Of a stretch of DNA of 64,000 nucleotides, positions 1 to 62,807 are shown one piece after another. Position 1 is the first letter of the stretch. Each line of letters begins with the position of its first letter. The notes beneath the pieces were generated by a model, which saw nothing but the letters and a program-made list of their open reading frames with translations, searched no databases and had not been told where the DNA came from. This DNA comes from an uncultured Flavobacteriaceae bacterium. GTDB taxonomy: Bacteria > Bacteroidota > Bacteroidia > Flavobacteriales > Flavobacteriaceae. Position numbers and translations under genes: made by a program. Location of the stretch: assembly GCA_943787295.1 (NCBI GenBank), contig CALSLW010000002.1:62001-126000 (forward strand). The letters run 5' to 3'.

Positions 1-2346
1 TTTAACAGTTTCCAAACAGGACTATCTAATATTGATATTGCAAAAGTAGAAGTTGTTCGTGGAGCTGCATCAGCACTTTATGGACCTGGGGTAACATCTG
101 GAGTAATTCACTTTATGAGTAAAAGTCCTATTGACTATCCTGGAACTACTGTTGAATTATTAGGAGGGTCGCTAGACACTTATGGTGCGTCTATTCGTCA
201 TGCATTTGCAACAGAAGACAAAAAGTTTGGATATAAAATCAACGCAAGATATGTTGAGGGGAATGATTTTGGACTTGATCTTCAAGAAGATGCTGAACAA
301 ATCGCTACTTTCAGTAGAACAATTTCTCAACCTGATATTACTCCAGAAGGTTATGTGGATGTTACTTCTCCTGGAACTATACTTTTAAACGAATCAGATC
401 TAGATGATGATTTTGATGGAAACCCACTTGCAACAGAATACAGAAACTATTCTGTAAACGCACATTTACAATACCGTCCAAATGATGACACAGAGGCATT
501 TCTTTCTGGAGGTTTAGCCAAAGGAAACGGTCTTTTCTTTAACGATCAAGGAGCTGGTATGACGCAAGGGACTGACTATTGGGCTCAAGCTCGTGTTTCG
601 TCAGGAGGATTCTTTGGAGCGCTTTCTTATAACTATAATGATGGTGGTTTAGAAGAAAACCCTACCTTTTTATACGCATCTGGATTTAGACAAGTTGCAC
701 GTCGATCTGCACTTGAGGCACAGCTGCAATATAACTTTGACGTACCTAGTTTCTTTGATTCTAGCTTTACAATTGGTGGAGATTACAGAGATATTTTCTC
801 TGATTCAGCAAACACATTGTACGGTCGTTATGATGATAATGATGATTATATCATCGCTGGTGCATACCTCCAGGGAACATCTCGTTTTAGCGAGCAACTT
901 GAATTAACCTATGCATTGCGTTATGATGATTTCAACATTTTTGACGAAGGACTTATCGCACCTCGTGTTGCCTTAGTTTATAAAATGAACGAGAAAAATA
1001 CGTTTAGAGCATCTTTTAACAGATCTTCAAGTGGTCCTGTAGCTCTTCAACAGTTCATTGATTTCCCATTAGCAATTTTATCTCCTGGGGTACTTGATGT
1101 ATGGTTAGCTGGTCAAGCAGATCCACACTTATTTGGCGACAGTCCTTACATTGACCTAGCACTAACACCAACTGAAGATACAATGTTGTCACCAGATGCT
1201 ACCGGTTTACCAGCAGCATTTTTATATGGTGCAATCGCTGGGCAGCCTGGAGCAATCGCTGGTCTAGCTGAACTACTTGGACAAACTCTTGGAGCAAATG
1301 GCGCAAACCCATTAACAGGTGCAGGAGCTTTTGGAGCATGGGCACAATCCCCAGGAACAGCTGCAAGTTTATTTCAAGATAACGTGGGAATGTTCTATAA
1401 ATACAACCTATTTACTCAAGAAAGCATGATGAATGCTGATGGTTCAGCCCAGCTGGATGATACTCCTAGATCTAAACCATCATTTACCAACAATATTGAA
1501 ATAGGATATTCAGGATTATTATTTGATAAATTAAAAGTCGGAGTTGACTTTTACACTTATGAAGTCCAAGGATTTACTCAATTTACTGCTGTTGGACCAA
1601 CTGTAGGACTCGTAGATTCTCCTGCTGATTTGGCTGCAGGATTATTGGGTACAGCAGCTGGTATCGACGATATCCCTGCTCAATTTGGAACCATTATTGC
1701 AAATAATTTTGCTTCATCTACCTTCGCTGGTACCTTGGATCCATTGACAAGAGCAGTAACAATAGGTTTCTTAGAACAAGCATTCACTGGTGCTGGAGCT
1801 AGTGCACTTGGAGCTGTCCCTGCTTCAGCTTATGCAGCATTGGGAGCAGTAGAAACAAATAGAGTTCCACAAAACGATGGTGTTGTGCATATCCCTGCTG
1901 GATATCGTCGTTTCCAAGATGCTAAAAGAAGCCACTACGGGATCGACGTAGACCTTGAATATTTTGCAAACGAAAACTACTCTTTCTTTGCGAATGGTTC
2001 TTGGTTAAGTCAAACTGAATGGGCTATTGGTGATGATGATCTACCATTTACATCTTACTTAAACGCTCCGCAAACAAGAGCTAGAGCTGGTGTACGTTTT
2101 TCTGATGATAACTCTAGATGGTCTATCTCTTATCAATATGATGAAGCATTCTATGCGAACGTAGGTCAATTTGCTGGAATGGCTCCAGAGAAGAACTTAA
2201 TCGATGCTAACATTGGTTATACCTTAAGCAACGGAGTACGTTTTGATCTTACAGCATCTAACTTATTTGATAGAAAATATCGTGCATTTGCGAATATGCC
2301 AATTATCGGAAGACGTATAATTGGAAAAATCACCTTTGATCTATAA
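1..2346 (+). CDS. TonB-dependent outer-membrane receptor, 5' end missing
   Basis: The reading frame is open from base 1, so the gene begins upstream of the window; 781 residues are visible. The first codons encode the end of the plug domain (VEVVRGAASALYGPG, a hallmark of TonB-dependent receptors). The rest is a beta-barrel with alternating aromatic and polar strands, ending in GKITFDL. Such receptors import substrates across the outer membrane using TonB energy. Two long Ala/Gly-rich hydrophobic stretches (about 1050-1390 and 1590-1860) sit where extracellular loops are expected and are unusual. The gene ends 20 bases before a dehydrogenase gene on the same strand, so it probably heads the catabolic cluster and imports its substrate. 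The family call is secure; the substrate is unknown. Confidence 0.93.
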   Translation, partial: FNSFQTGLSNIDIAKVEVVRGAASALYGPGVTSGVIHFMSKSPIDYPGTTVELLGGSLDTYGASIRHAFATEDKKFGYKINARYVEGNDFGLDLQEDAEQIATFSRTISQPDITPEGYVDVTSPGTILLNESDLDDDFDGNPLATEYRNYSVNAHLQYRPNDDTEAFLSGGLAKGNGLFFNDQGAGMTQGTDYWAQARVSSGGFFGALSYNYNDGGLEENPTFLYASGFRQVARRSALEAQLQYNFDVPSFFDSSFTIGGDYRDIFSDSANTLYGRYDDNDDYIIAGAYLQGTSRFSEQLELTYALRYDDFNIFDEGLIAPRVALVYKMNEKNTFRASFNRSSSGPVALQQFIDFPLAILSPGVLDVWLAGQADPHLFGDSPYIDLALTPTEDTMLSPDATGLPAAFLYGAIAGQPGAIAGLAELLGQTLGANGANPLTGAGAFGAWAQSPGTAASLFQDNVGMFYKYNLFTQESMMNADGSAQLDDTPRSKPSFTNNIEIGYSGLLFDKLKVGVDFYTYEVQGFTQFTAVGPTVGLVDSPADLAAGLLGTAAGIDDIPAQFGTIIANNFASSTFAGTLDPLTRAVTIGFLEQAFTGAGASALGAVPASAYAALGAVETNRVPQNDGVVHIPAGYRRFQDAKRSHYGIDVDLEYFANENYSFFANGSWLSQTEWAIGDDDLPFTSYLNAPQTRARAGVRFSDDNSRWSISYQYDEAFYANVGQFAGMAPEKNLIDANIGYTLSNGVRFDLTASNLFDRKYRAFANMPIIGRRIIGKITFDL

Positions 2347-2366
2347 TAATTACTGGATCAGCTAGT

Positions 2367-3110
2367 ATGAAAGACAAAATAGCATTCATTACTGGTGCTG
2401 CCAAAGGAATCGGAAGAGCAACAGCCGTTGCTCTTTCGACCTCTGGTTGCCAAGTAATCCTCACTGATATTGATCAAAACGCCCTAGATCAAACCAAGAA
2501 TGAAATTGAAAATGCTGGTGGCAAAGCCACTACTTATTTACTCGATGTATCTAGCCAAGAACAGGTAAACGCCGTTCACCAAAAGGCTTTAAAAGAGCAT
2601 CAACACATTGACTATTTCGTCAATAATGCAGGCATAGGAGGTGTCTTAACTCCCATCCATTTAATGACAGCAGAGAACTGGAATAATGTAATTAATGTTG
2701 ATCTCAACAGCATATTCTACTGCTTACATGCACAAATAAATATCCTCTTACCACAAGGCGGTGGGAACATTGTCAATGTTGCCTCACTCGCTGGTAAAAA
2801 AGGCGTTATGGCTGGATCTCATTATTCGGCGGCAAAACACGGGGTCATCGGGATCACTAAAAGTGCTGCGATAGAATATGGCGCGCATAACATTCGCGTT
2901 AATGCCATTTGTCCCTCTTTTTTAGAAACCGATATTATTCAAGCGGTACCTCAACAAATACTCGATTTTGTAAAACAACATCGTGTTCCACTAAAACGGC
3001 ATGGTAAAGCAGAAGAAGCTGGAGAAACAATCAAGTGGTTACTATCAGATCAATCTTCATTTGTCAACGGTCACGCCTTAGTGATGGATGGCGGTATGAA
3101 CGCTGGATAA
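2367..3110 (+). CDS. Short-chain dehydrogenase/reductase (SDR) 1
   Basis: A 247-residue classical SDR. The Rossmann motif TGAAKGIG lies near residue 9, the NNAG motif near residue 88, the catalytic Ser in SLAGKKG and the catalytic YSAAK near residue 152, and the usual DGG is near the C-terminus. These enzymes oxidise or reduce alcohol/ketone groups with NAD(P)(H), often on CoA thioesters in beta-oxidation-like pathways. The gene follows the TonB receptor by 20 bases and precedes a second SDR by 84 bases. All catalytic residues are present. The substrate cannot be read from sequence. Confidence 0.9.
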   Translation: MKDKIAFITGAAKGIGRATAVALSTSGCQVILTDIDQNALDQTKNEIENAGGKATTYLLDVSSQEQVNAVHQKALKEHQHIDYFVNNAGIGGVLTPIHLMTAENWNNVINVDLNSIFYCLHAQINILLPQGGGNIVNVASLAGKKGVMAGSHYSAAKHGVIGITKSAAIEYGAHNIRVNAICPSFLETDIIQAVPQQILDFVKQHRVPLKRHGKAEEAGETIKWLLSDQSSFVNGHALVMDGGMNAG

Positions 3111-3194
3111 CTCACCCTAAACTTTCTTATTTTTAGTGATTTGCAGCTTCTAAAGCAGTAGACTTTTTCCTCTTTTTTCTTATCTTGAGGTGAT

Positions 3195-4001
3195 ATGTTT
3201 GCACCCTCATTATTTGAAAATAAAACCATCCTTGTTAGTGGTGGAAGAAGCGGAATAGGCTTTGCCATTTCAAAAGCATTTCTCGAACATGGTGCAGAAG
3301 TTTTTATCGCATCGCGGAAAAAAGAGTTGCTCGAAAAAGCCGCAGAAGAGTTGAACCAATTCGGAAAGTGCCATGCAGTCCCTTGTGACATTCGTTCTCC
3401 CGAAGACATCAATGCTTTAGCGACAGCCATTCAAGAAACCACAGGCCGTTTAGATATCCTAATCAATAATGCAGGAGGACAATTCCCTGCCCCTGCGCAT
3501 GTCATGGCAGAAAAAGGTTGGGCAGCGGTCATCAATAACAACCTTAACGGCACCTTTTATATGTGCCAAAAAATAGCGAACAGCTTTTTTATCCCACAAA
3601 ACAGCGGCAACATCATCAATATAACGGCAAATGTCTTGCGGGGTTTCCCTGGGATGGCACATACAGGTGCAGCACGTGCTGGAGTAGAAAATTTAACAAA
3701 GAGTCTGGGACAAGAATGGGCGACCTATGGGATTAGGGTAAATGCAGTCGCTCCCGGCACCATTGACACCACTGGCTTAGACAACTACCCACCTTTTATG
3801 CGAAATTTCTTTCGTAAAACTGAAGGTAAAAACTTGATGAAACGCTTTGGAAAAGCAGAAGATGTAGCAAACGCAGTACTCTTTCTTTCCAGCCCACTGG
3901 CAAGTTATATTAGCGGGGTAACCCTTCCCGTAGATGGTTTAGAACATCTTGCTGGGGATAGAATGGATATGTATAACGCATTAATGAAGATGATGAAATA
4001 A
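3195..4001 (+). CDS. SDR 2, peroxisomal trans-2-enoyl-CoA reductase-like
   Basis: A 268-residue SDR with the cofactor motif GGRSGIG and NNAGGQFPAPA. The usual YxxxK active site is replaced by HTGAARAGVENLTKSL, the pattern I recall from peroxisomal trans-2-enoyl-CoA reductase (PECR) and close to 2,4-dienoyl-CoA reductases. This suggests reduction of a C=C bond in an enoyl-CoA rather than a ketone. A GAGG purine run just upstream (about 3187-3191) may help translation. It sits between SDR 1 and an SMP-30-like gene, 11 bases before the latter, so co-transcription is likely. Enoyl-CoA reductase activity is inferred from motif resemblance. Confidence 0.85.
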   Translation: MFAPSLFENKTILVSGGRSGIGFAISKAFLEHGAEVFIASRKKELLEKAAEELNQFGKCHAVPCDIRSPEDINALATAIQETTGRLDILINNAGGQFPAPAHVMAEKGWAAVINNNLNGTFYMCQKIANSFFIPQNSGNIINITANVLRGFPGMAHTGAARAGVENLTKSLGQEWATYGIRVNAVAPGTIDTTGLDNYPPFMRNFFRKTEGKNLMKRFGKAEDVANAVLFLSSPLASYISGVTLPVDGLEHLAGDRMDMYNALMKMMK

Positions 4002-4012
4002 AATTACTCGAT

Positions 4013-5071
4013 ATGAAACTTTTTAAAACACTTATAGCATTCGTACTAATCACTGGAATGGCGTATCTTGGTTTTTATCCTATCCCTCTTGATCCAATAG
4101 CACGAAAAGCTCCCCCGTTCCCCGGCTTAAAAGGAGTGTATCAACCCAATAATCAATTAGCTAAAACTAATTTAATCTCCCTCCCTTCACTAGGTCCAGA
4201 ATCTATCGTTCGTCATCCTGATGGACACTTTTTTACGGGTTTAGCCAATGGGGACATCGTTCAATTTAATGCAAAAGGAGAAGAACAAAACATTATCGCC
4301 AATACGGGTGGACGCCCATTAGGAATGAAAATCACCCCCAGTGGGGAACTCATCATCGCAGATCAAATCAAAGGGCTGATCAAATTAGACAGCGCTAATA
4401 AAATCAGTATTCTAGTAGATCAATACAAAGGAGAATCCCTAAAATTTATCGATGATCTCGACATTAGTAAAGAAGGCATCGTCTATTTTAGTAATGCCAC
4501 CCAACGCAACCCCGATGTGGTTGAAAATGAAGCCTGGGAACAAAGAGCATCAGGGGCTATTTTTGCCTTTGACCTCAATACAGAGCAATTGCGCTTAATC
4601 AAAGACGACTTGTTTTTTGCGAATGGGGTTGCCCTTAATGCTACCCAAGACTATTTTGTCTTCAGTGAAACCTTTGGCTTTAGCCTTAAAAAATACTGGC
4701 TTAAAGGACCAAAAGCTGGAACGATCGAAATTTTCAATGATCGTTTACCCGGTTTTCCAGACAATGTTACCTTTAACAAAGGCATCTTTTGGGTCGCTAT
4801 CCCCACACAACGGGTTATCAATATTGAACCCTTATTTGAATATCCCTTTATACGATCAATGATTTTACGCCTCCCAGAAGCTGTGCGCAATGCGGTCTTA
4901 CCTCCTCGTTATGCCATGCTTTTAGGCTTTAACGAAGAGGGAAAAGTCATTTATAATCTTCAAGACCCCGGCGGAAAGTATGATTATATCACTAGTGTTT
5001 TACAAATTGAAAATCAATTATACTTGGGGAGTTTAAAAGAGCCCACCTTTGGGATATACTCCCTTGACTAA
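4013..5071 (+). CDS. SMP-30/gluconolactonase/strictosidine synthase-like beta-propeller, membrane-anchored
   Basis: 352 residues. A hydrophobic N-terminal segment (about residues 5-22) is either a membrane anchor or a signal peptide. The rest resembles a six-bladed propeller of the SMP-30/strictosidine synthase-like/APMAP group: FIDDLDISKEGIVYFSNA near residue 145 and FFANGVALNATQDYFVFSE near residue 202 are typical blade motifs carrying likely metal ligands. Family members hydrolyse lactones or related esters. In this cluster a lactonase opening a ring intermediate, probably on the periplasmic side, is plausible but inferred. It is the last gene before a 146-base gap. Confidence 0.82.
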   Translation: MKLFKTLIAFVLITGMAYLGFYPIPLDPIARKAPPFPGLKGVYQPNNQLAKTNLISLPSLGPESIVRHPDGHFFTGLANGDIVQFNAKGEEQNIIANTGGRPLGMKITPSGELIIADQIKGLIKLDSANKISILVDQYKGESLKFIDDLDISKEGIVYFSNATQRNPDVVENEAWEQRASGAIFAFDLNTEQLRLIKDDLFFANGVALNATQDYFVFSETFGFSLKKYWLKGPKAGTIEIFNDRLPGFPDNVTFNKGIFWVAIPTQRVINIEPLFEYPFIRSMILRLPEAVRNAVLPPRYAMLLGFNEEGKVIYNLQDPGGKYDYITSVLQIENQLYLGSLKEPTFGIYSLD

Positions 5072-5111
5072 GGCAAAAATCAATAATAAAATGCCGATGG
5101 AAAACGCATCT

Positions 5112-5123
5112 TATGCATGCATT
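5112..5123. promoter_or_regulatory. Candidate operator palindrome before the SDR 3 operon
   Basis: TATGCATGCATT contains the perfect palindrome ATGCATGCAT and lies in the only sizeable gap (5072-5217) between the two halves of the cluster, about 95 bases before the SDR 3 start. It matches 10 of 12 positions of TATGCAAGCATA, which occurs twice in inverted orientation before the MarR gene at 62825. Whether it binds a regulator is unknown; a 12-base match can arise by chance. Confidence 0.35.
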
Positions 5124-5217
5124 ATTTATCCCTTTTAGACCAGTCAAAAATCAAAAACAAACTTTATATTGTAAAAAATATTAAATCGTAGAATAATTAT
5201 TAAACCAAAAAATATTT

Positions 5218-5961
5218 ATGTTCAATTTAGAAGGACAAGTCGCCATCATTACCGGTGGTGCACAAGGAATTGGAGAAGGTATCTGCCAGGTCTTTTGTAA
5301 GGCTGGAGCGACAGTCGCGTTGTGGGATGTACGTGACTCTGGTGCTGCCACAGCAGAAAAAATTAAAGCCGAAGGTGGAAACATCTTTTTTCAAAAAGTA
5401 GATATTACCGATCGAGCAGGCGTTGACAAAGCCGTTGCAGAAATCATTGAAGGCTACAGTAAAATTGATATTTTAATCAACAACGCTGGGGTTTTACGCG
5501 ATCGCTCTTTTTTAAAAATGACCCAAGAAGAGTGGGATACCGTAATCAACGTTAACCTTAGTTCCCTTTTCACCACAACACAAGCCGTGCTGCCTTACAT
5601 GCGTGAAGCAGGCTATGGACGGGTTATTTCGGCCTCTTCAGTGAATGGTTTTACAGGAGCCTTCGGCCAAACAAACTACTCGGCTACTAAAGCGGGTGTC
5701 GCCGGATTTACTAGAGCATTGGCCAGAGAGGTAGGGCGTTTTGGTATTACAGCAAATGCTGTTGCCCCAGGCTTTATCGAATCAGAAATGACCGCATCTA
5801 TGCCCCCCGAAGTGGTCAAAGCGGGTATCGCCATGATACCAGTTGCCAGAATCGGTACCCCAGAAGATATGGGTCATGCCTATTTATATTTAGCCTCAAA
5901 AGAAGCAGGATTTATTAACGGAACTACCTTACATGCAAACGGTGGTGCCTTCCCAACATAG
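5218..5961 (+). CDS. SDR 3, FabG/acetoacetyl-CoA reductase-like
   Basis: A 247-residue classical SDR with TGGAQGIG at the cofactor site, NNAGVLRD, catalytic Ser in ISASSVNG and YSATK near residue 159. Overall it resembles 3-oxoacyl-ACP/acetoacetyl-CoA reductases (FabG/PhaB type). The likely reaction is reversible 3-ketoacyl / 3-hydroxyacyl thioester conversion with NAD(P)(H). It begins a second tight gene run; the next SDR starts 5 bases after its stop. The active site is complete. A catabolic rather than biosynthetic role is inferred from its neighbours. Confidence 0.9.
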   Translation: MFNLEGQVAIITGGAQGIGEGICQVFCKAGATVALWDVRDSGAATAEKIKAEGGNIFFQKVDITDRAGVDKAVAEIIEGYSKIDILINNAGVLRDRSFLKMTQEEWDTVINVNLSSLFTTTQAVLPYMREAGYGRVISASSVNGFTGAFGQTNYSATKAGVAGFTRALAREVGRFGITANAVAPGFIESEMTASMPPEVVKAGIAMIPVARIGTPEDMGHAYLYLASKEAGFINGTTLHANGGAFPT

Positions 5962-5966
5962 AAAAA

Positions 5967-6737
5967 ATGAGTACACGTAAATTATTTGAATTAGATGGCA
6001 AAGTTGCTATTGTTACTGGCGCCAGTAAAGGAATTGGAAAAGCCATCGCTGAAGCCTTAGCAGAATACGGCGCTAAAGTTGTTGTAAGCAGTCGCGCGCA
6101 AGAAGCCGTAGACGAAGTTGCCAATGAAATTAAAGCCAATGGCCATGAAGCCACCGGGATTGCTTGCCATGTGGGGCGAGAAGATCAACGTAAAGAACTG
6201 GTTGAAAAAACCATCGCCGCTTATGGCGGAGTCGATATCTTAGTGAACAATGCAGCAACTAACCCCGTGTTTGCTCCAGTAGAAACCATTGAGAACGATA
6301 TTTTTGATAAGGTAATGAACGTTAACGTTAAAGCCTGTTTTGATTTGGCGAAGCTTTGCTTCCCATCTATGAAAGAACGCAAAAGCGGAAGTATCATTAA
6401 CATTGCCTCTGTGGAGGGAATGAAACCCAGTAATGGCTTGAGCATTTATAGTGTTAGTAAGTCGGCATTGATTATGTTAACCCAATCCCAAGCCAGTGAA
6501 TGGGGGAAATATGGAATTCGTTCTAATGCAATTTGTCCAGGATTGATCAAAACAAAATTTAGTCAAGCCTTATGGACAAACGATACGTTAATGCAACAAG
6601 TCAACAATCACCTACCGCTTCGTCGTGCAGCAGAAACACATGAGCTCTCTGGGCTAGCCGTATATCTAGCCTCTGAAGCTTCTTCTTATACTACAGGAGC
6701 CGTTTTAAATGCAGATGGAGGTCATATGTTAACCTAA
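5967..6737 (+). CDS. SDR 4
   Basis: A 256-residue classical SDR. TGASKGIG is near residue 17, NNAATNP replaces the usual NNAG (as in DHRS4-like and related enzymes), the catalytic Ser is in INIASVEG and YSVSK is near residue 163. It ends with NADGGHML. It is encoded 5 bases after SDR 3 and 9 bases before the MaoC-like gene, so it is clearly operonic. The role is probably NAD(P)-dependent oxidation of a hydroxyl group on a CoA-bound intermediate; the substrate is unknown. Confidence 0.9.
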   Translation: MSTRKLFELDGKVAIVTGASKGIGKAIAEALAEYGAKVVVSSRAQEAVDEVANEIKANGHEATGIACHVGREDQRKELVEKTIAAYGGVDILVNNAATNPVFAPVETIENDIFDKVMNVNVKACFDLAKLCFPSMKERKSGSIINIASVEGMKPSNGLSIYSVSKSALIMLTQSQASEWGKYGIRSNAICPGLIKTKFSQALWTNDTLMQQVNNHLPLRRAAETHELSGLAVYLASEASSYTTGAVLNADGGHMLT

Positions 6738-6746
6738 AAAAGAGCA

Positions 6747-7235
6747 ATGGAACAAACCACTACCCCCTATGCTACTCAACTCAAGGAGCTTGAAGAGTTA
6801 AAAGATTATGTCGGAAAAGAATTAGGTCTGACCGAATGGATGACCATGGAACAAGAGCGCATCAATAGCTTCGCTGAAGCTACGGAAGATATGCAATGGA
6901 TCCATACCGATCCAAAACGAAGCGCCGCCTTTTCTCCCTATAAGAAAACTGTCGCTCACGGCTTTTTAGTGCTTTCACTAGCCTCTAAAATTTCTTATGA
7001 TGCCTTCTCGATTGAGAATATTGTTATGGGCGTTAACTATGGTTTAGACAAGGTGCGTTTTCCTAACGCAACTAAATCAGATGCAAAACTAAGGGGACGT
7101 GTCTCCTTAATGGCATACGACGCTATTCCAGGCGGTGCCAAATATAAAATGAAAATCGTCTTTGAATTAGAAGGTGAAGAAAAACCCGCTTGTGTCGCCG
7201 AATTTTTAGCCATGGCCTATACTATGCCTGCTTAG
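6747..7235 (+). CDS. MaoC-like (R)-specific enoyl-CoA hydratase/dehydratase
   Basis: 162 residues with a single hot-dog fold. The hydratase-2-like segment ATEDMQWIHTDPKRS near residues 50-64 carries the Asp/His dyad positions, followed by TVAHGFLVLSL. MaoC proteins add water to trans-2-enoyl-CoA or perform the reverse reaction, supplying the hydration step of beta-oxidation; here the 3-hydroxyacyl-CoA product could pass to one of the adjacent SDRs. The start is 9 bases after SDR 4. Length is normal for single-domain MaoC proteins. Confidence 0.88.
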   Translation: MEQTTTPYATQLKELEELKDYVGKELGLTEWMTMEQERINSFAEATEDMQWIHTDPKRSAAFSPYKKTVAHGFLVLSLASKISYDAFSIENIVMGVNYGLDKVRFPNATKSDAKLRGRVSLMAYDAIPGGAKYKMKIVFELEGEEKPACVAEFLAMAYTMPA

Positions 7236-7247
7236 AAAAAAAAGACT

Positions 7248-7355
7248 ATGACAAAAATAACCGAGGGTGCTTTTTACATCTCCTCTATAAAAGGACATAA
7301 CTTAAACGTCTATTTGTTTGGAGAGAAAGTTGTTGAACCTGCAACTAAAATATAA
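7248..7355 (+). pseudogene. Remnant of a 4-hydroxybutyryl-CoA dehydratase/4-HPA 3-hydroxylase-family gene (N-terminus only)
   Basis: A 35-codon frame starting 12 bases after the MaoC stop. Its residues FYISSIKGHNLNVYLFGEKV match the typical N-terminus of AbfD-type dehydratases (YIESLRKLN..VYMFGEK), which are normally about 490 residues. The frame then stops (PATKI, stop), so more than 90% of the gene is gone. The spacing and start are those of a normal operon gene, consistent with internal deletion. The resemblance comes from memory of the family, not a search. Confidence 0.6.
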
Positions 7356-7364
7356 AAACACTAG

Positions 7365-7457
7365 GTCATAGTATTGGTAAGAATTGAAATAAACCACACC
7401 GAAAATATCCTCAATGAATTATGTGATTATTTTAAACGTGTATTTAAAACGAATTAA
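7365..7457 (+). pseudogene. Unidentified C-terminal gene fragment abutting the phosphotransferase gene
   Basis: An open frame with no start codon at its 5' end (it follows an in-frame TAG at 7362) encodes about 30 residues including LVRIEINHTENILNELCDYF and stops with TAA directly before the ATG at 7458. It reads like the helical C-terminus of a protein, possibly a TetR-type regulator, but I cannot assign it. With the remnant just upstream it suggests that a deletion joined the start of one gene to the end of another. Confidence 0.35.
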
Positions 7458-8537
7458 ATGGGAGTAGCATTAGACAAAGCAAAAGCAGTTCGCAAGGGAG
7501 AAAACCTCAACGAAACCGCTTTACAACAATATTTAGTCAAAAACTTAGGACAAGAACAAGGGAAACTAACGGTACAACAATTCCCTTCAGGTTTTTCAAA
7601 CCTGACCTATTTGATACAATTTGCAGGAACAGATTATGTGTTGCGTCGTCCTCCCTTTGGGGCGAATATCAAATCTGGGCATGATATGGGACGGGAATAC
7701 AAAATTCTTTCTGCCCTAAAAGGGAACTATGACAAAGCGCCCAAACCCATTCTTTTTTGCGAAGACTTAAGTATCCTTGAGGCGCCCTTTTATTTAATGG
7801 AACGGGTGCAAGGAACCATTTTAAGGTCCTCTACTCCTCAAGACCAAATGCCTAGTCCAGCACAATTTGAATTCCTTTCAAATAGCTTAGTCGATACCCT
7901 TGTTGAATTACATCAACTGGATTATAAATCGATTGGATTAGGAGATTTAGGGAATCCAGAAGGCTATGTAGAACGCCAAGTAGTAGGCTGGAGTAAACGC
8001 TATCAAAAAGCGAAAACCCATGACAACAAAGAAATGGAAGCAACCGCGCTTTGGCTCAACAACAACATGCCTAAAAAAAGCGGGGCGAGCCTAGTTCACA
8101 ACGATTTTAAGTATGATAATCTAGTTCTAACCCCAGATGAAAACCTGAATGTAAAAGCAGTTTTAGACTGGGAAATGACTACCCTAGGGGATCCTTTGAT
8201 GGATCTAGGTACCACTTTAGGCTATTGGATTCACCACACTGATCCAGATTTTATTGCGCAAAATCAACTCAATCTCACTACCCAAAAAGGGAATCCAACC
8301 CGGGGAGAGATTGTAGAAATGTATGCCAAAAAAAGCGGTCAAGCTGTAGATGACATCGTTTTCTACTTTGTTTTTGGGGTGTTTAAAATTGCTGTTATTG
8401 TACAACAAATATATTACCGCTATAGTCTGGGTCACACACAAGATCCACGCTTTAAGCATTTAGATAAAATTGTCGCCTTGTATGGTTTAGTGGCCCAGCA
8501 AGCGATACAAAAAAAGAAAATTGATCACTTATTTTAA
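7458..8537 (+). CDS. Phosphotransferase-family protein (APH fold, ACAD10/11 N-domain-like)
   Basis: 359 residues with an aminoglycoside phosphotransferase/choline kinase-like fold. The N-lobe has GFSNLTYLIQF and YVLRRPP, the catalytic loop is LVHNDFKYDNL near residue 215 and the metal-binding segment is LDWEMTTLGDPLMDLG. This subfamily is commonly encoded beside acyl-CoA dehydrogenases and is fused to one in animal ACAD10/11, where it is reported to phosphorylate 4-hydroxyacyl-CoA so that the hydroxyl can be eliminated. That role fits here, since two acyl-CoA dehydrogenases follow. An antibiotic-resistance role is unlikely. The ATG immediately follows the stop of an older gene fragment. Confidence 0.88.
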   Translation: MGVALDKAKAVRKGENLNETALQQYLVKNLGQEQGKLTVQQFPSGFSNLTYLIQFAGTDYVLRRPPFGANIKSGHDMGREYKILSALKGNYDKAPKPILFCEDLSILEAPFYLMERVQGTILRSSTPQDQMPSPAQFEFLSNSLVDTLVELHQLDYKSIGLGDLGNPEGYVERQVVGWSKRYQKAKTHDNKEMEATALWLNNNMPKKSGASLVHNDFKYDNLVLTPDENLNVKAVLDWEMTTLGDPLMDLGTTLGYWIHHTDPDFIAQNQLNLTTQKGNPTRGEIVEMYAKKSGQAVDDIVFYFVFGVFKIAVIVQQIYYRYSLGHTQDPRFKHLDKIVALYGLVAQQAIQKKKIDHLF

Positions 8538-8545
8538 TCAAGACA

Positions 8546-9739
8546 ATGGAAACGACGACAAAAAAAGATCTCGAAGATTTTAGACTCGAAACAAGACGAT
8601 GGCTGGAGGAAAACTGTCCGGCGAGCATGCGCAAACCCATCAAAGACTCCAATGATTACTTCTGGGGTGGTCGCAATGCTATTTTTAACAATGAAGACCA
8701 AAAAGTTTGGTTTGAAAAAATGTTAGCAAAAAAGTGGATTGTTCCTTATTGGGACACCCAATATGGTGGAGGGGGCCTCTCTAGAGAAGAGAACAATATT
8801 CTTACCCAAGAAATGACTCGTCTTGGCTGTAGAAAACCCCTCTTTAGTTTTGGAATTTCAATGCTGGGCCCAGCCTTACATAAATTTGCTAACGAGGAAC
8901 AAAAAATGCGCTTCCTCCCAGAGATCACCGCAGGAAAAACTTGGTGGTGTCAAGGCTATAGCGAGCCTAACGCAGGAAGTGATTTAGCCGGCTTGCAAAC
9001 AAAAGCCGAGGATAAAGGTGACCACTATCTGGTCACTGGATCTAAAGTGTGGACCTCTTATGCAGATAAAGCAGATTGGATCTTTTGTTTAGTTAGAACA
9101 GATTTTGACGCTCCAAAACACAACGGAATTAGCTTTCTATTAATCGACATGGCCTCTGAAGGTGTAAGCACAAGACCCATCAAATTGATCAGTGGTAAAT
9201 CTCCCTTTTGCGAGACTTTCTTTGATCATGTGAAGGTACCCAAAGAAAATTTGATCGGGACACTTAATGAAGGATGGAGCATTGCGAAATACCTCCTAAC
9301 CCACGAACGCCAAATGATTGGAGGTGTTGGAGAAACAGATCAACGTCGAGAATTGCATGATATCGCAAAAGATCATCTACCAATGAAAGACGGGAAAATC
9401 ACCGATACAGTTTTGCGCAATGAACTAGCGGTACAGGATATGAACGATAAGATCTTTGAGATGACCATTCAACGCATTATGGATGAAGCCAAAACCGGTG
9501 TAAATGCTGGAGCACTTTCTTCCTTCTTTAAATATTATGGAACTGAACAAAATGTTTCTCGCATGGAATTAATGACCGCCATTACCGGAAGTGAGGGACT
9601 TGTTTGGGAAGGCGAAGATAAAGACGCCATGAACCAGGCAAGATTATTTTGTCGCTCTAAAGGAAATACCATCGAAGGTGGAACCTCTGAGGTTCAACTT
9701 GGGATTATTTCAAAACGTATCTTAAACCTCCCTTCTTAA
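8546..9739 (+). CDS. Acyl-CoA dehydrogenase, putative catalytic subunit of a pair
   Basis: 397 residues. The FAD/substrate signature WWCQGYSEPNAGSDLAGLQ is near residue 130, VTGSKVWTSYA near residue 162, and the C-terminal NTIEGGTSEVQ supplies a Glu near the usual catalytic-base position. It catalyses alpha,beta-dehydrogenation of an acyl-CoA, passing electrons to electron-transfer flavoprotein. The next gene, 9 bases downstream, encodes a second, shorter member that lacks the EGxT element. Such side-by-side unequal pairs are known from steroid side-chain catabolism in actinobacteria as alpha2beta2 enzymes; the same arrangement is inferred here. The start is 8 bases after the phosphotransferase stop. 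Confidence 0.93.
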   Translation: METTTKKDLEDFRLETRRWLEENCPASMRKPIKDSNDYFWGGRNAIFNNEDQKVWFEKMLAKKWIVPYWDTQYGGGGLSREENNILTQEMTRLGCRKPLFSFGISMLGPALHKFANEEQKMRFLPEITAGKTWWCQGYSEPNAGSDLAGLQTKAEDKGDHYLVTGSKVWTSYADKADWIFCLVRTDFDAPKHNGISFLLIDMASEGVSTRPIKLISGKSPFCETFFDHVKVPKENLIGTLNEGWSIAKYLLTHERQMIGGVGETDQRRELHDIAKDHLPMKDGKITDTVLRNELAVQDMNDKIFEMTIQRIMDEAKTGVNAGALSSFFKYYGTEQNVSRMELMTAITGSEGLVWEGEDKDAMNQARLFCRSKGNTIEGGTSEVQLGIISKRILNLPS

Positions 9740-9748
9740 AACAATCCT

Positions 9749-10870
9749 ATGGCACTTATATTAAACGAAGAACAAAAAATGCTCAAGGATTCTGCGAACG
9801 AATTCTTAGCAGCAAACGCACCCGTAGAACAATTTAGAACATTAAGAGATAACAACTATGAAGCCTTTGACGCCGATCTTTGGCCCGCCATAGTAGAAAT
9901 GGGATGGACCGCTTTAACGATTCCAGAAGAATATAACGGCTTAGATTTTGGCTATGTTGGTTTAGGACAAGTCTTAGAAGAAATGGGGCGCAATTTAACT
10001 AAAGCTCCTTTATTATCTTCAATCGCTTTGGGCGGAACCGCCCTAGTTAATTCAACTAATGCAGGCCTAAAATCATCTTGGATTCCAGAAATCATGAATG
10101 GGACAAAACGCTTAGCCTTTGCTACAGATGAAAAGAATTATTTTGATCCTACAGCCATCGAAACTACTGCAGTTACTACGGCAGAAGGATACAGTATTAA
10201 CGGAACCAAAAAAATGGTGATCGATGGAGCTGGTGCAGATGCTTATGTGGTTGTAGCCAAAACAGACGAGGGAGAATCTGCCTTGTTTCTAGTGGATGCA
10301 GCCAATAAAGGAATTACTATTCAAACAGACGTTTTATTAGACGCGGGTACATATGCCAGCTTGAGTTTTGAGCAGGTCAACATCGCCAATGACCAACGTA
10401 TAAGCGAACCAGGAAAAGGAAAAAGTCTTCTCAACTTAGTCAATAATACTGGAGCCATCTGCCTTTCGGCAGAGATGATGGGGATGATCCATGCTGCTTT
10501 TGAACAGACCGTTGCATATTTACAAGAACGCACCCAATTTGGGAAACGCATTGGTAGCTATCAAGCCCTGCAACACAGAGCTGCAAAAATGTTTTGTGAA
10601 ATTGAACTGTGCAAAAGTGTAGTGATTACCGCCTTAAAAGGTTTAGATAAACAAGCAGAAAATTTAGATGAGTTAGCCAGTTTGGCCAAAGCAAAACTAG
10701 GTGAAACCATCAAGGTCGTTTCAAATGAAGCCATGCAAATGCACGGCGGTATTGGCGTTACCGACGATGTCAATATTGGGTTTTACTTTAAACGTGCCCG
10801 CGTCGCACAACGATTATTTGGAGATTACAATTATCACCTCGACCGTTATGCGAGCTTAAAGCAATATTAA
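9749..10870 (+). CDS. Acyl-CoA dehydrogenase, putative partner subunit lacking the catalytic Glu motif
   Basis: 373 residues with the acyl-CoA dehydrogenase fold: the N-terminal helical domain, YSINGTKKMVIDGAGADAYV in the middle beta-domain, ERTQFGKRIGSYQALQH near residue 257, and AMQMHGGIGVTDDVNIG. No EGT-type catalytic glutamate is visible at the C-terminus, and the middle domain lacks the usual TEPxAGSD signature. This fits a non-catalytic partner of the enzyme encoded immediately upstream. It is the last gene of the run and converges with the amidohydrolase gene across an 11-base gap. Confidence 0.9.
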   Translation: MALILNEEQKMLKDSANEFLAANAPVEQFRTLRDNNYEAFDADLWPAIVEMGWTALTIPEEYNGLDFGYVGLGQVLEEMGRNLTKAPLLSSIALGGTALVNSTNAGLKSSWIPEIMNGTKRLAFATDEKNYFDPTAIETTAVTTAEGYSINGTKKMVIDGAGADAYVVVAKTDEGESALFLVDAANKGITIQTDVLLDAGTYASLSFEQVNIANDQRISEPGKGKSLLNLVNNTGAICLSAEMMGMIHAAFEQTVAYLQERTQFGKRIGSYQALQHRAAKMFCEIELCKSVVITALKGLDKQAENLDELASLAKAKLGETIKVVSNEAMQMHGGIGVTDDVNIGFYFKRARVAQRLFGDYNYHLDRYASLKQY

Positions 10871-10878
10871 AACAATAT

Positions 10879-10907
10879 CCCTTAGTTGACTCCCGGTTGG
10901 CTAAGGG
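10879..10907. terminator. Weak candidate hairpin between convergent genes
   Basis: CCCTTAG (10879-10885) and CTAAGGG (10901-10907) can pair as a 7-bp stem with a 15-base loop, just after the acyl-CoA dehydrogenase stop and inside the end of the amidohydrolase gene. The T-tract after it is short, so terminator function is uncertain. Confidence 0.3.
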
Positions 10908-12438
10908 TAAAGTTTTCTTCTTCTTTCACTTGATCAACCATGTTTTTGACCTCTTTTAAGAGTGCTTTTGCATCGTAAACAACACCGTTGCTAATGGTGT
11001 ATTTCACCCCTCCTACTCTAACAACTTTGTTATCACTGGTTAATTTTATTGCGCCGGTTCCATAGAGCACTTTTAGGTTTTCTAGTGGATTTGCATCCAC
11101 TAAAACCATATCAGCTAATTTACCTACTTCTATCGTTCCTATTTGGTCGTCCATTTTAAGTGCCTCTGCACCGTTGAGGGTAGCAGAACGGATCACCTCA
11201 AGTGGATGAAAACCTGCTTCGCGCAATAATTCTAACTCGCGCACATAGGCAAAACCATATAATTGAAAAATAAATCCAGAGTCAGATCCTGTGGTCACTC
11301 TTCCTCCACGGTTTTTATATTCGTTGACAAAGGTCATCCAAAGTGTATAATTCTGTTTCCAAGCAATCTCTTGCTCTGTACCCCAAAAATGCCAGTAAGA
11401 TCCATGGGATATCTTAGACGGCTGATAGAAACGCCAAAGACTGGGTAGGGTGTAATCTTCGTGCCATTCTGCGCGACGTGATCGATGTAAATCTCGACTG
11501 GCTTCATAGATGTTAAAGGTGGGGTCCAAAGTGAAATCAAGGGCTAACAATTCTTCCATCACCCAGTTCCAATGTTCTGAATAAGGTTTAGCAGCTTGTT
11601 GCCATAGTTTCCCCGCTTGTTCAAAGCGATGTTGTTCATTTTGATAGTTGTAATCCAAAGGATAATCTTGAACAGTTTTATCGTCAAATAAAGCTTCTGG
11701 CAAACCATACCAATGCTCCATGCTGGTGAGTCCAGCTCTGGCAGAATGCAATACGTTCCAGCGAGCAACACTTAATTGTGCATGATGACAGGCAGAGCCT
11801 AATCCTAGCTTTTTGTTTTCGTCTAGGGCGGCTTCCATAATTTCGGGCGAAGCCCCAAAAAACTTAATTCCGTCTGAGCCCGCTTTGGCGTTAGCCCTTA
11901 CCCACGATCTCGCTTCTTCAGGAGTATTGATGCCATTTTCGGCACCAGTCCCAAAACCAGTGTATTGAATAATTCGCGGCGCAATAATTTTATTTTGTGC
12001 ACTTTTTTGCTTCAAATCTAAGGTCCAATCTCGACTGCGTCCACTGGGTTCTCTCACCGTGGTAACGCCATGGGCCAGCCACAATTTAAATACATAATCC
12101 CAATCTGCGCCTTGTGATACTCCCCCAATATGGCCGTGCATATCGATAAAGCCAGGGAGTAAATACATGCCCTCGGCATCGATTTCCTTTCCACCTTCTT
12201 TTAATACGGGTCTTCTTTTATCGTTGATTTCAACCCCAGGATAACCCACAGTTTTTACTTGAGTAATCACATTGTTTTCTACCACTACATCAACAGGTCC
12301 CAGCGGTGGTGCACCATTACCATTAATTAGTATTACCCCTCGAATAATCATTTGATCAAATGGACCCTCTGCTAGTTGGGCATGTACCACTATTGTCGAG
12401 AGTAAGAATACTGCAAATAATAAGCGATTGTTTTTCAT
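10882..12438 (-). CDS. Secreted metal-dependent amidohydrolase
   Basis: 518 residues from the chosen start. The frame extends to 12489, but the start at 12438 gives a clear signal peptide (MKNNRLLFAVFLLST, cleavage after VHA), so the protein is exported. The amidohydrolase fold is shown by DMHGHIGG (HxH metal site), a His pair in SACHHAQLS, TSMEHWYG, TTGSDSGF (metal-ligand Asp) and the C-terminal GTIEVGKLADMVLVDANPL beta-sandwich. Family members hydrolyse amide, ester or cyclic imide bonds; many flavobacterial ones are secreted imidazolonepropionase/prolidase-like enzymes of unknown substrate. It is convergent with the catabolic run and probably expressed alone, so a link to that pathway is only possible. 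Confidence 0.88.
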   Translation of the reverse strand: MKNNRLLFAVFLLSTIVVHAQLAEGPFDQMIIRGVILINGNGAPPLGPVDVVVENNVITQVKTVGYPGVEINDKRRPVLKEGGKEIDAEGMYLLPGFIDMHGHIGGVSQGADWDYVFKLWLAHGVTTVREPSGRSRDWTLDLKQKSAQNKIIAPRIIQYTGFGTGAENGINTPEEARSWVRANAKAGSDGIKFFGASPEIMEAALDENKKLGLGSACHHAQLSVARWNVLHSARAGLTSMEHWYGLPEALFDDKTVQDYPLDYNYQNEQHRFEQAGKLWQQAAKPYSEHWNWVMEELLALDFTLDPTFNIYEASRDLHRSRRAEWHEDYTLPSLWRFYQPSKISHGSYWHFWGTEQEIAWKQNYTLWMTFVNEYKNRGGRVTTGSDSGFIFQLYGFAYVRELELLREAGFHPLEVIRSATLNGAEALKMDDQIGTIEVGKLADMVLVDANPLENLKVLYGTGAIKLTSDNKVVRVGGVKYTISNGVVYDAKALLKEVKNMVDQVKEEENFTLSQPGVN

Positions 12439-12567
12439 TTTCTTTTGTTGTGTAGCTAAAACTATAAAAAAATGGTGATACAGAATCACAATAACTTATT
12501 TAACAATTGGTATGGTTTATGTGTATAATTTATTTACTATTTTTATATGTATAAATTGTAAAATTGT

Positions 12568-12923: not shown

Positions 12924-15900
12924 ATGTTACGTAATCTTATTTTTTCTGCTTTTTACTTATTCTTTACCCCATTATTATGGGCAAATGAATCTATTGTTTC
13001 TTCATCGAATGAAAGAATATCAGCGAACTCTCTTTTAAATACTTGTACCATATCGATTAGCGACGTTCAAGGATCAATTAGTGGACAAACGGTGAGCTAT
13101 CAAGAAACACTAGAACCTATTGTCATAAGTTTTGTGACAGATTGTAACGAAAATTTGGTTTTAGACTTTGCTCCTGGTCAGCTTCCCTCAGGGATCAACT
13201 ATACTTTTGCCAATAATCAACTTACCATTGAAGGGACAATAGAAGATGAAACCCCGCAAGAATATACCTGGACAGCAGAAGTCAACAACAGCATCCCCGT
13301 AGATGAAACAAATCCAGCAGGGGTGAGTGCCACAACCTCTATCAGTTTAAACGGTTCTATTACAGTAACTCCAACAGTACCAAACGATTTTGAAGGTCCT
13401 GTTATGTCAGAATTTTCCCTTTCACCAAGTCCAATTGATCTATCTAACGGTTCTGTAACAGTAACTGCTTCGATTAGAATAACAGATCAAACAGGAGTCG
13501 CAACCCCTAGTTCAAATTATGGTGGAGCTTACATCACGGGGACCCCCAGTGGAAACATTTATTTCTCTCATTGGGTTAGAGTGAGTGGCGATCAATTTGA
13601 TGGAATTTATGAATGTTTTAAAACCATTGAACCAAATCAAATCCCCGAAGGTGATTACAACCTAAGAGTAGAGTCAATTAACATTAATGACCTCAATGGG
13701 TTTAATGCTATCCCACCTGCTGGTGCTGTAGGTGTTAGTGTGATTAATCCTGCTCAAGGATGCACTTATGCTTCATTAAACGTTATTTATGGGGGTCTCA
13801 ACCAAAATATAACCCAAGGAGAAGCCATAGAATCCATTAGCATACAATTAGATACCGACTGTGTTAATAACAATAATAATACTATTCTCAACTCCTCCTC
13901 AGAAGGTTTACCCCTTGGGGTAACATATAGCTTTGATGGAGCTAACAATATTGTTATTGTGAGTGGTACACCCTCTTCACAAGGAACTTATAGTTATGTG
14001 ATCAAATATTACAATGGTCAAACAATTGATAGTTCGACAGTATCTGCCACAATTGGAGGAACAATCACTGTTATTGCAAATTCTACCACCTCAACTTCAA
14101 CTGCGAATTCTGGAAATATATATTTTGAAAATGGCACTTGTAAATGTCCGAATGCTACTGTGGGAGAAACCTCAGAAATTAATGGTATTACTTATACAGC
14201 AGTAGATGACACTTCTTTACGAAGTGAGATCGCAACAGGAAATGTAAATTTATGTACTTCCTTAGTAACTGATATGAATGTGCTCTTTAATGAAAATAGT
14301 TCATTTAATGAAAATATAAGTTTTTGGGACACATCAAATGTACTTGGTATGCAACTTACTTTTGCTGGTGCGTCCTCGTTCAACCAGGATATCAGTAACT
14401 GGAATACACAAAATGTAGGTGCAATGAATGGAATGTTTGCTGGAGCAACATCTTTCAATCAAAATATTGGAGGATGGGATATTTCAAGCGTAACGGACAT
14501 ATGGGAAATGTTTCTATATGCTTCTTCCTTTAATCAAAATTTAAGTTCTTGGAATACGAGTAACATTGTTAGTATGAGAAGTATGTTTGAAGGCGCATTA
14601 ACATTTAATCAAAACATCTCAAATTGGGATACATCTTCTGTAATAGATATGAGTAGAATGTTTTTTGAAGCCACCAGTTTCAATCAAAATATTGGGGGAT
14701 GGAATTTAATTAATGTGCTATTAATCGACAATATGTTCAATGGAGCTACTGTTTTTAATCAAAATATTGGAGGGTGGAATACATCGAATGTATTTGGTAT
14801 GTCAGGAGTTTTCGATTCTGCTGAGAGTTTTAATCAAGACATTAGCAATTGGAACACTTCTTCCGTCAAAAATATGGAAAGCATGTTTTATGGGGCATAT
14901 TCATTCAACAAGGATATTGGAAATTGGGATACAAGTCAAGTAAATGACATGAATAATATGTTTAGGGATGCATCTGTATTTAATCAAGATCTCTCCAACT
15001 GGTGCGTAGAAATAATTACTAATGAACCTGAAAACTTTGCAACTAATGCTGCATTAACTCAAGAGAATCAACCGGTATGGGGAGCAGCTTGCGGAGGAAA
15101 TAACAATACAGCAGATCAGGATGGAGATGGTGTTGAGGATAGTGTCGATCTGTGTCCATACACGCCACAAGGTCAAAGTGTTAATGCCGCAGGTTGTCCA
15201 ATAAACAATGTTAGCTGCGATTTCACTATAGTTGCTAACCCCTTTGATCAATCGCTAGAATTCTGTCCCGGGAAAGCGATTCCTCCTTTTGAATTTATAG
15301 TAGAGTCCAATTGTAGCTCTTCTTCTCTTTCTATTGACGTAACTGGCTTACCCAATGGAATTGACTATATTATTAAATCAATAGATGCTATTACCACCTT
15401 AACTTTTCAAGGAACGCCGACAACCCTAGGTAATGAAATAGCTAATATTAATATCTCAACGAGTAACTTCTCTTCTTCTGTGGGAGGACTAATTATTATT
15501 GATGAAAATTGTGGCGAGGGAGGGTCTGGAACTGGAACAGATACTACAAACGGGCAATACGATTCAGACTTTGACGGTGTGCCAGACCAATTTGACGATT
15601 GTCCTTACACGCCAATAGGTCAAGTAGTAAACCCCTTAGGTTGTCCTATTGAGCAAATCAATTGTTCTTTATCAATTGAAGGCAACATCAGAAAAGACAT
15701 TTGTCTTGACCAAGAAATCGAACCTATTCGCTTAGCATTATCGACCAGCTGTACGAGTACTTTCATTGATGCAAATATTATCGGACTACCTCCAGGACTG
15801 AGTTATTCGATGGAAAAAACTGAAGATGGGAATGAATTCATCATAGATGGTAAAGCATTTATCCCAGGGGATTATCAAGTAACAGTATTCTTTTATGATG

Positions 15901-62698: not shown

Positions 62699-62708
62699 AC
62701 AACACTTG

Positions 62709-62736
62709 AAACCCCTCAAAAAAGAGGGGTTTTTTT
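62709..62736 (+). terminator. Rho-independent terminator after the acyl-CoA synthetase gene
   Basis: An 8-bp stem (AACCCCTC, six-A loop, GAGGGGTT) followed by a run of T, 11 bases beyond the stop. It separates the synthetase transcript from that of the MarR gene. Confidence 0.88.
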
Positions 62737-62748
62737 AAACTTATATAC

Positions 62749-62788
62749 TATGCAAGCATAATTATGCAGGGATAATTATGCTTGCATA
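62749..62788. promoter_or_regulatory. Large inverted repeat, probable MarR operator pair
   Basis: Two perfect 17-base arms (62749-62765 and 62772-62788; left arm TATGCAAGCATAATTAT) flank GCAGGG. The outer 12 bases of each arm, TATGCAAGCATA, are themselves a near-palindrome, so the element holds two copies of a MarR-like site about 28 bases apart. It lies just upstream of the -7 box of the MarR gene, where binding would block transcription. Confidence 0.75.
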
Positions 62789-62799
62789 CTATTTTTAAT

Positions 62800-62807
62800 T
62801 ATATTTG
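62800..62807 (+). promoter_or_regulatory. Bacteroidota -7 box for the MarR gene
   Basis: TATATTTG, 17 bases before ATG 62825 and 11 bases after the inverted repeat. Confidence 0.6.

Follow-up and report, generated by a model that had tools for sequence, protein, structure and literature searches.

A candidate flavobacterial operon for hydrophobic acids or lactones degraded via a 4-hydroxyacyl-CoA

The stretch of DNA analysed here (the window) comprises 64,000 nucleotides of an uncultured Flavobacteriaceae bacterium (assembly GCA_943787295.1, contig CALSLW010000002.1, positions 62,001 to 126,000; here C2:62001-126000), whose genome of 2.2 Mb is 89% complete and is held in four contigs. Positions 1-10870 encode, on one strand, a TonB-dependent receptor (TBDR), four short-chain dehydrogenases/reductases (SDR1 to SDR4), a beta-propeller protein (SSL), a MaoC-type hydratase, an APH-family phosphotransferase (APH) and two unequal acyl-coenzyme A (CoA) dehydrogenases (ACADs; ACADa and ACADb). 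With a probability of about 0.6, these genes belong to an operon for the catabolism of a hydrophobic compound, either a carboxylic acid or a lactone, which would be degraded via a 4-hydroxyacyl-CoA. This reading is carried by gene content, homology, synteny, the remnant of a dehydratase gene next to APH, and the complementary distribution of two partners of APH. A preliminary description of the locus had proposed the breakdown of a cyclic or branched hydrophobic compound; that interpretation is partly supported and is re-centred here on the 4-hydroxyacyl-CoA intermediate.

APH and its LvaC/ACAD11-type partner

The alignment scores of APH are 306 bits to 9o56 and 172 bits to ACAD11. In the alignment with the ACAD11 kinase (8v3v), the catalytic residues D220 and N225 and the CoA-site arginines R86 and R176 are matched, and the corresponding APH stretch reads HNDFKYDN; the earlier assignment as an ACAD10/11-type phosphotransferase is supported. 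The roles of the catalytic Asp and Asn and of these arginines are given in the available part of PMC12440821. According to the accessible portions of PMC12440821 and PMC11342911, ACAD10/11 and LvaA/LvaC phosphorylate a 4-hydroxyacyl-CoA and then eliminate the phosphate, and the ACAD part requires R626 and an HCMR motif, with an Asp acting as base.

APH was searched in 199 family genomes, 22 of which (own included) were positive at E <= 1e-30, and the flanks were taken for 20 of the 21 other genomes (congener G099 among them, G178 left out). An ACAD carrying RLGPGRIHHCMR, a motif specific to LvaC and ACAD10/11, lies beside APH in all 20 loci, and SDR4, the LvaC-type ACAD and APH occur together in 19. 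ACADa and ACADb are additionally present in six, where the order is SDR4-MaoC-ECH-LvaC-APH-ACADa-ACADb (ECH being a crotonase), with a dehydratase between LvaC and APH in locus L034. ACADa and ACADb were considered as the LvaC-type partner and rejected: HCMR occurs in neither, and all 20 family loci hold a third ACAD that carries it. As a side observation, a protein of 798 amino acids with two ACAD units lies inside the operon of another genus (L031 13857-16253).

An LvaC-type paralogue is encoded elsewhere in the same genome, at C1:504492-505742. It carries RLGPGRIHHCMR and scores 447 bits against ACAD11, and the LvaC-type protein of L034, used as a query against this genome, found its best match there (C1:504510-505577, 45% identical). 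When the genus (19 genomes) was searched with the C1 paralogue, a distant copy was found in 10 genomes, an operon copy in 6, both in none and neither in 3. Among these last three, G200 has fragments of an operon copy, two overlapping pieces that leave residues 140-203 without a match, the contig of G212 ends inside APH, and G201 is without APH. The distant copies are 72-100% identical to the C1 query, with a second copy in G210 at 66%, and the operon-only copies 45-47%. All 11 distant copies retain the DGPDE stretch and HCMR, the latter as RIHHCMR or, in G204, G205, G203, G210, G215 and G213, as RVHHCMR. One stop was read through in five of the 11 distant-copy matches; that of G208 most likely precedes the true start, since the genome's own frame of 406 amino acids begins at query Met12.

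Fisher's test of operon copy against distant paralogue gave a p of 0.00025, with kinship ignored, G200 counted as an operon copy and G201 left out. On a tree of SDR3, SDR4, APH and the neighbouring amidohydrolase, the switch between copies needs three changes (bootstrap 3-4), of which starred branches require two, and the copy labels cluster, counts as low being reached in 8 and 7 of 500 shuffles. Operon and distant LvaC copies fall into clades of their own in trees built with 5 of the 11 distant copies; those of the six genomes with RVHHCMR are left out, and one tree is additionally without G000, G208 and the second copy of G210. We read this pattern as a repeated exchange of the operon lyase and the distant paralogue. 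Second LvaC-APH loci were seen in two congeners, on C10 of G210 (L109) and C6 of G099 (L042), one of them with SDR4 and SDR1, and such loci may indicate the origin of the distant paralogue.

A dehydratase in the same slot

The slot between MaoC and APH holds LvaC together with a dehydratase-type protein in G214, G209 and G211, and a dehydratase-type protein alone in G208. The corresponding protein of L034 scores 762 bits to 6vjr and 558 bits to 1u8v, a 4-hydroxybutyryl-CoA dehydratase/vinylacetyl-CoA isomerase, and the four congener genes are 81-82% identical to that of L034. Alignment of the intact L034 protein to 1u8v and 6vjr (L034 only) showed that it retains the CxxxC and H...C stretches, which we take to be the dehydratase ligands.

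In the window, the 222-bp gap at 7236-7457 corresponds to residues 1-31 and 475-500 of the dehydratase (tblastn). Compared with the intact G208 gene (blastn), the ends of the remnant are 74% and 77% identical and are joined near 7341, with about 1.3 kb missing in between. A search of the own genome returned this remnant as the sole match to the dehydratase, and congeners with neither LvaC nor dehydratase have just 8-39 bp between MaoC and APH. Judging from these matches, the dehydratase gene of this genome is internally deleted, an assembly error being possible. The presence of a dehydratase in this slot points independently to a 4-hydroxyacyl-CoA. If this holds, the two ACAD partners that never occur together and the decayed dehydratase gene serve as natural experiments in which three enzyme families are linked to a single intermediate, and the substrate class thereby becomes directly testable.

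Conservation of the gene set

The order TBDR-SDR1-SDR2-SSL-SDR3-SDR4 is kept in ten congener loci (L094, L095, L097-L100, L102, L103, L107 and L108). The remaining congener contigs end too early for this order to be judged, apart from that of G203, which begins inside SDR1 and continues to SDR3, with SDR2 and SSL absent. The CoA-dependent catabolic set is thus conserved as a unit, the point on which the preliminary description had made its own claim depend. APH occurs in 18 and ACADa in 13 of the 19 genus genomes (own included), and G208 is the closest relative seen, with 94-95% identity in APH and ACADa. Silent sites are near saturation, yet protein identities are high; the ratios of nonsynonymous to synonymous substitution rates (dN/dS) are rough and computable for part of the set. 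The conserved gene order together with the high protein identity despite near-saturated silent sites argues that the ten-gene set is not a product of chance.

Two further observations concern the borders of the set. The receptor is 84% identical to that of G209 versus 53-58% to those of nine other congeners, a pattern that neighbouring genes do not share and that reads as a receptor exchange. The convergent amidohydrolase is 80-92% conserved at the operon end in congeners, even where ACADa and ACADb have been lost.

SSL, a Baeyer-Villiger-type gene and lactone chemistry

The structure model of SSL (pLDDT 85.7) is a six-bladed propeller with an N-terminal helix (residues 2-21) that looks like a membrane anchor. 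Its best fold matches are TGW6 and strictosidine synthase, followed by the RPA3624 lactonase, DFPase, gluconolactonase, Drp35 and PON1. All 11 sequences compared keep E63, D148, N204 and D250; these residues may correspond to the metal-site tetrad of DFPase (E, N, N and D), with one Asn replaced by Asp. Unlike strictosidine synthase, SSL retains N204 and D250 in the sequence alignment.

A flavin monooxygenase of the Baeyer-Villiger monooxygenase (BVMO) type is encoded in 6 of the 19 genus genomes (G213, G099, G214, G212, G208 and G211), at an identity of at least 61% to that of G213. In all six the gene lies directly before the acyl-CoA ligase gene on the same strand; the BVMO-ligase pair of G208 and G212 is on a different contig from the rest of the operon. 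Type I Baeyer-Villiger monooxygenases are marked by the motifs FxGxxxHxxxW and GGxWxxxxYPGxxxD, and all six congener proteins carry FxGxxxHxxxW and GGTWRDNxYPGCACD. The best curated model, pentalenolactone D synthase, is far below its cut-off (174 vs 1100). G205 has just a 29% relative on another contig, in which both motifs fit. Six congeners have an open reading frame (ORF) of 231-340 amino acids between ligase and receptor, and the two examined are alpha/beta hydrolases. Two candidates in the own genome were rejected. The interval from thiolase to ligase holds no BVMO remnant (best tblastn E 0.31), and the flavin monooxygenase at C1:380658 has a motif that ends in F, not W.

The lactone-forming chemistry proposed earlier gains from these results, as the APH, LvaC-type and dehydratase-type enzymes act on 4-hydroxyacyl-CoAs, SSL has the fold of propeller lactonases and a BVMO-type gene is found in congeners.

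SDRs and hydratase

The four SDRs had been taken as a sign of ring chemistry, a view that is not supported. SDR2 falls in the enoyl/dienoyl-CoA-reductase branch, its best PDB match being 1yxm (peroxisomal trans-2-enoyl-CoA reductase), followed by 6lln, 3imf, 4fc6 and 1w6u. SDR3 is FabG-like; its best NCBIfam model reaches 272 bits (cut-off 296), and it passes the FabG subfamily NF009466 (236 vs 222). SDR4, whose best PDB match is DHRS4, accompanies LvaC and APH. For Pseudomonas citronellolis, the available part of PMC6692424 gives an LvaA homologue followed by a phosphatase, an LvaC homologue and an SDR of 255 amino acids. By its gene company SDR4 is a candidate LvaD-like member. MaoC is a separate gene here and in ten congener loci and is fused to ECH in five (L101-L104 and L108; 437-438 amino acids, 406 in the cut L101), and MaoC and ECH are neighbouring genes in six loci of other genera.

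Proposed pathway and alternatives

The individual reactions, their order and the substrate class are predicted as follows. The receptor would import the compound, the SSL propeller would open a lactone (or ester) and the upstream ligase would form the CoA thioester. Beta-oxidation would be performed by the alpha/beta ACAD pair, the MaoC hydratase, SDR3 and the divergent thiolase, with SDR2 reducing an enoyl- or dienoyl-CoA. Once beta-oxidation stalls at the 4-hydroxy stage, APH would phosphorylate the 4-hydroxyl group and the LvaC/ACAD11-type enzyme encoded on C1 would eliminate the phosphate, yielding a 2-enoyl-CoA, while SDR4 would interconvert 4-oxo and 4-hydroxy forms. Some congeners hold a 4-hydroxybutyryl-CoA dehydratase in the slot between MaoC and APH.

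Several observations weigh against this pathway. The LvaC-type gene is absent from positions 1-10870, so that a partner encoded elsewhere has to act in trans and might have its function in a different pathway. In fold, SSL lies closer to TGW6 and strictosidine synthase than to a lactonase, and the stretches fetched from other genera gave no SSL match (two of them, L036 and L037, end before that place). A search of the own genome returned no BVMO-type gene, and the alpha/beta hydrolase of the congeners is not at its place here, where the gap between ligase and receptor is 197 bp; the ring-opening step may therefore not exist in this genome. SDR4 passes the broad NCBIfam 'glucose 1-dehydrogenase' subfamily (265 vs 215), and SDR1 and SDR2 are above no NCBIfam cut-off among the best 25 models. 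Finally, APH lies outside the operon in G099 and thus appears dispensable within it, and G199, G203 and G206 have no ACADa/b after APH, so that the pair is not indispensable either.

A six-ring ketone gives an epsilon-lactone and then a 6-hydroxy acid, and one round of beta-oxidation leads from there to a 4-hydroxyacyl-CoA. Such a route would explain the BVMO, SSL, the ligase, ACADa/b, the hydratase, SDR3 and the thiolase, followed by APH with LvaC or by the dehydratase; the step from 6-hydroxyhexanoate to 4-hydroxybutyryl-CoA is not shown in the available part of PMC12193338. Since the BVMO-type gene was not found and the dehydratase is broken in this genome, the pathway may start here with a preformed lactone or with a 4-hydroxy acid of linear chain. 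A wider proposal, which we put forward tentatively, is an undescribed modular route by which flavobacteria would degrade a terpenoid, a lactone or a cyclic ketone, probably derived from Proteobacteria. In it, a BVMO-type enzyme would form a lactone and the propeller would open it, a single alpha/beta-ACAD round of beta-oxidation would shorten a 6-hydroxyacyl-CoA to a 4-hydroxyacyl-CoA, and the hydroxyl group would be removed by either of two unrelated chemistries sharing one slot (kinase plus ACAD11-type lyase, or 4-hydroxybutyryl-CoA dehydratase), the lyase having been swapped repeatedly for a paralogue at another place in the genome.

The main rival explanation is that the substrates are ring-free hydroxylated or unsaturated fatty acids, such as oxylipins, 4-hydroxyalkenoates or gamma-lactones with a linear chain. 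It is a possible reading but not a favoured one. The beta-oxidation set looks complete and includes SDR2 of the dienoyl/enoyl-CoA-reductase branch, a 4-hydroxyacyl-CoA kinase with its ACAD11-type partner is present, and no BVMO-type gene was found in this genome. However, it would leave unexplained why six congeners have a BVMO-type gene ahead of the ligase, and it does not account for the alpha/beta ACAD pair: a search of 394 other genomes in the phylum sample at E <= 1e-90, with at most four candidates scored per genome, gave no match to ACADa.

It is unlikely, in contrast, that APH is a passenger left over from the loss of the LvaC-type ACAD and the dehydratase, in an operon for plain beta-oxidation of a branched acid. 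The lack of an LvaC-type gene in the operon, the dead dehydratase gene adjoining APH and the G099 operon without APH would fit this idea. Yet APH is 94% identical to that of G208 with a dN/dS of 0.033, it is kept in 18 of the 19 genus genomes (outside the operon in G099), and 17 of the 18 genomes with APH show one or the other type of LvaC copy, the contig of the eighteenth, G212, ending in APH.

The ACAD pair, the steroid question and origin

The best PDB matches of ACADa are 6wy9 and 6wy8_B, followed by 4x28_A. ACADb matches 6wy8_A and 4x28_D, with 3nf4 and 4l1f scoring higher. An HER stretch with E254 is invariant in 11 of 11 ACADa sequences and aligns to HER of Tcur3483, and the window ACADb has NTGA at this place. 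In ChsE4-ChsE5 the catalytic Glu is in the alpha subunits, according to the available part of PMC11153573. ACADa and ACADb are thus a candidate alpha2beta2-type dehydrogenase, with the Glu in alpha alone.

Canonical aerobic steroid degradation uses a side-chain P450 and a KshA-type Rieske oxygenase. In this genome, which is 89% complete, P450 (PF00067) has 0 matches and Rieske (PF00355) a single one of 25 bits (cut-off 20.3) in an ORF of 183 amino acids. The canonical steroid route, and with it the 'steroid-like' substrate named earlier, is disfavoured. Degradation of a steroid or sterol side chain, with an ACAD pair of the FadE26-27/Tcur3483-3481 type and SDRs acting as hydroxysteroid dehydrogenases, is very unlikely: ACADa and ACADb do match the two chains that pair in 6wy8 and in 4x28, but no CYP125- or KshA-like oxygenase was seen in the genome, the curated models that score best for the two proteins are those of pimeloyl-CoA dehydrogenase subunits (PimC and PimD, below cut-off), and SDR2 and SDR3 have relatives in beta-oxidation.

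A wider contig scan for ACADa returned at least 80 loci, nearly all titled Proteobacteria and none titled Bacteroidota, at 50-62% identity; the pattern search biases this sample, in which near relatives may be missing. Both APH and an HCMR-type ACAD lie within the fetched stretch in 19 of 80 listed loci. In Robiginitomaculum (L132 and L135) the genes follow the order SDR4-APH-ACADa-ACADb-LvaC-SDR2-SDR3, and L132 has MaoC between SDR2 and SDR3. These comparisons are most simply explained by transfer from Proteobacteria.

The locus had been called possibly undescribed. The LvaA/LvaC/ACAD10-11 chemistry has been published (PMC12440821, PMC11342911 and PMC6692424, in their available parts); searches of open-licence literature gave no paper on the combination of genes, which is weak evidence of novelty. 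In the accessible part of PMC6692424, lvaABCD homologues are named for Alpha-, Beta- and Gammaproteobacteria. If the proposed pathway is correct, 4-hydroxy-acid catabolism of the LvaA/ACAD10-11 type would be extended to Bacteroidota, and flavobacteria with small genomes would gain a route to lactones or cyclic compounds.

Gene content and neighbourhood

The window genes (Table 1) were assigned by ORF, Pfam and NCBIfam calls, with NCBIfam verdicts taken among the best 25 models listed, and these confirmed the ten same-strand genes. Six of their nine junctions measure 5-20 bp and the remaining three 84, 146 and 222 bp. The complete receptor ORF (L008 11419-14346) encodes 975 amino acids and starts 582 bp before the window. 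The receptor had been regarded as the head of the locus, but the gene before it, on the same strand, encodes an acyl-CoA ligase, which is thus the first gene of the set; a divergent thiolase lies beyond. The separate locus noted at 60938-64000 is present and consists of a ligase-like ORF, an ORF of 144 amino acids and the start of a 604-residue ACAD frame. After the amidohydrolase, a repetitive surface-type protein of 2187 amino acids is encoded at 12924-19487, and in L095 and L099 a similar protein starts at the matching place, as judged by eye.

Table 1. Features of the locus and its neighbours, in window positions unless given in those of stretch L008.
Feature	Position	Strand	Basis or remark
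TonB-dependent receptor	1..2346	+	PF00593; 5' end cut by window edge
SDR1, classical SDR (TGxxxGxG, NNAG, YxxxK), dehydrogenase	2367..3110	+	Pfam/NCBIfam, motifs
SDR2, enoyl/2,4-dienoyl-CoA reductase branch	3195..4001	+	PDB matches; without YxxxK at the usual place
SSL beta-propeller, candidate lactonase or esterase	4013..5071	+	PF03088, PF20067, PF08450; structure model
SDR3, FabG/acetoacetyl-CoA-reductase-like, probable 3-hydroxyacyl-CoA dehydrogenase	5218..5961	+	NCBIfam
SDR4, candidate 4-oxo/4-hydroxyacyl-CoA dehydrogenase (LvaD-like role)	5967..6737	+	Gene company; PDB; NCBIfam
MaoC-type enoyl-CoA hydratase	6747..7235	+	PF01575
4-Hydroxybutyryl-CoA dehydratase-type gene remnant	7248..7445	+	tblastn, blastn; both ends, internal deletion
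APH-family phosphotransferase, LvaA/ACAD11-kinase-like, candidate 4-hydroxyacyl-CoA kinase	7458..8537	+	PF01636; alignments to 9o56 and ACAD11
ACADa, alpha subunit, PimC/FadE26/Tcur3483-like	8546..9739	+	Helix-G-type Glu E254; without HCMR
ACADb, beta subunit, PimD/FadE27/Tcur3481-like	9749..10870	+	Without that Glu
Amidohydrolase-family protein, convergent	10882..12489	-	PF01979/PF07969; syntenic neighbour in congeners
AMP-binding acyl-CoA ligase, upstream of receptor, same strand	L008 9536-11221
Thiolase, divergent to ligase	L008 7924-9144

Comparison with known systems

The catabolism of cyclic ketones of the cyclohexanone type proceeds by a Baeyer-Villiger monooxygenase, a lactonase and beta-oxidation. 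Congener operons hold a BVMO-type gene, a hydrolase and SSL, whereas the BVMO-type gene was not found here. The 4-hydroxybutyryl-CoA dehydratase/vinylacetyl-CoA isomerase (1u8v, 6vjr) has an intact homologue in the slot of four congeners and of L034, but the window gene is a remnant broken by internal deletion. With the alpha2beta2 ACADs ChsE4-ChsE5 (4x28), Tcur3483-Tcur3481 (6wy8) and PimC-PimD, the pair described here shares two adjacent unequal subunits and a catalytic-type Glu in alpha alone; it differs in that its scores are below the curated PimC/PimD cut-offs and that no steroid oxygenases were found in the genome.

Mammalian ACAD10 and ACAD11, which act in 4-hydroxy acid catabolism, combine a kinase domain like APH (172 bits) with an ACAD domain like the C1 LvaC-type protein (447 bits). 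In this bacterium the two are separate polypeptides encoded on different contigs, in the context of a bacterial operon. The lva operon of Pseudomonas for levulinate and 4-hydroxyvalerate (LvaA, LvaC, LvaD and LvaE) shares the APH-type kinase, the adjacent SDR of about 255 amino acids, the acyl-CoA ligase and the LvaC-type HCMR ACAD, the last of which lies in the operons of relatives and would act in trans here. Compared with the lva operon, LvaC is thus outside the operon and the host is not a proteobacterium, and the flavobacterial set additionally contains the TonB receptor, the SSL propeller, the alpha/beta ACAD pair, MaoC and three further SDRs.

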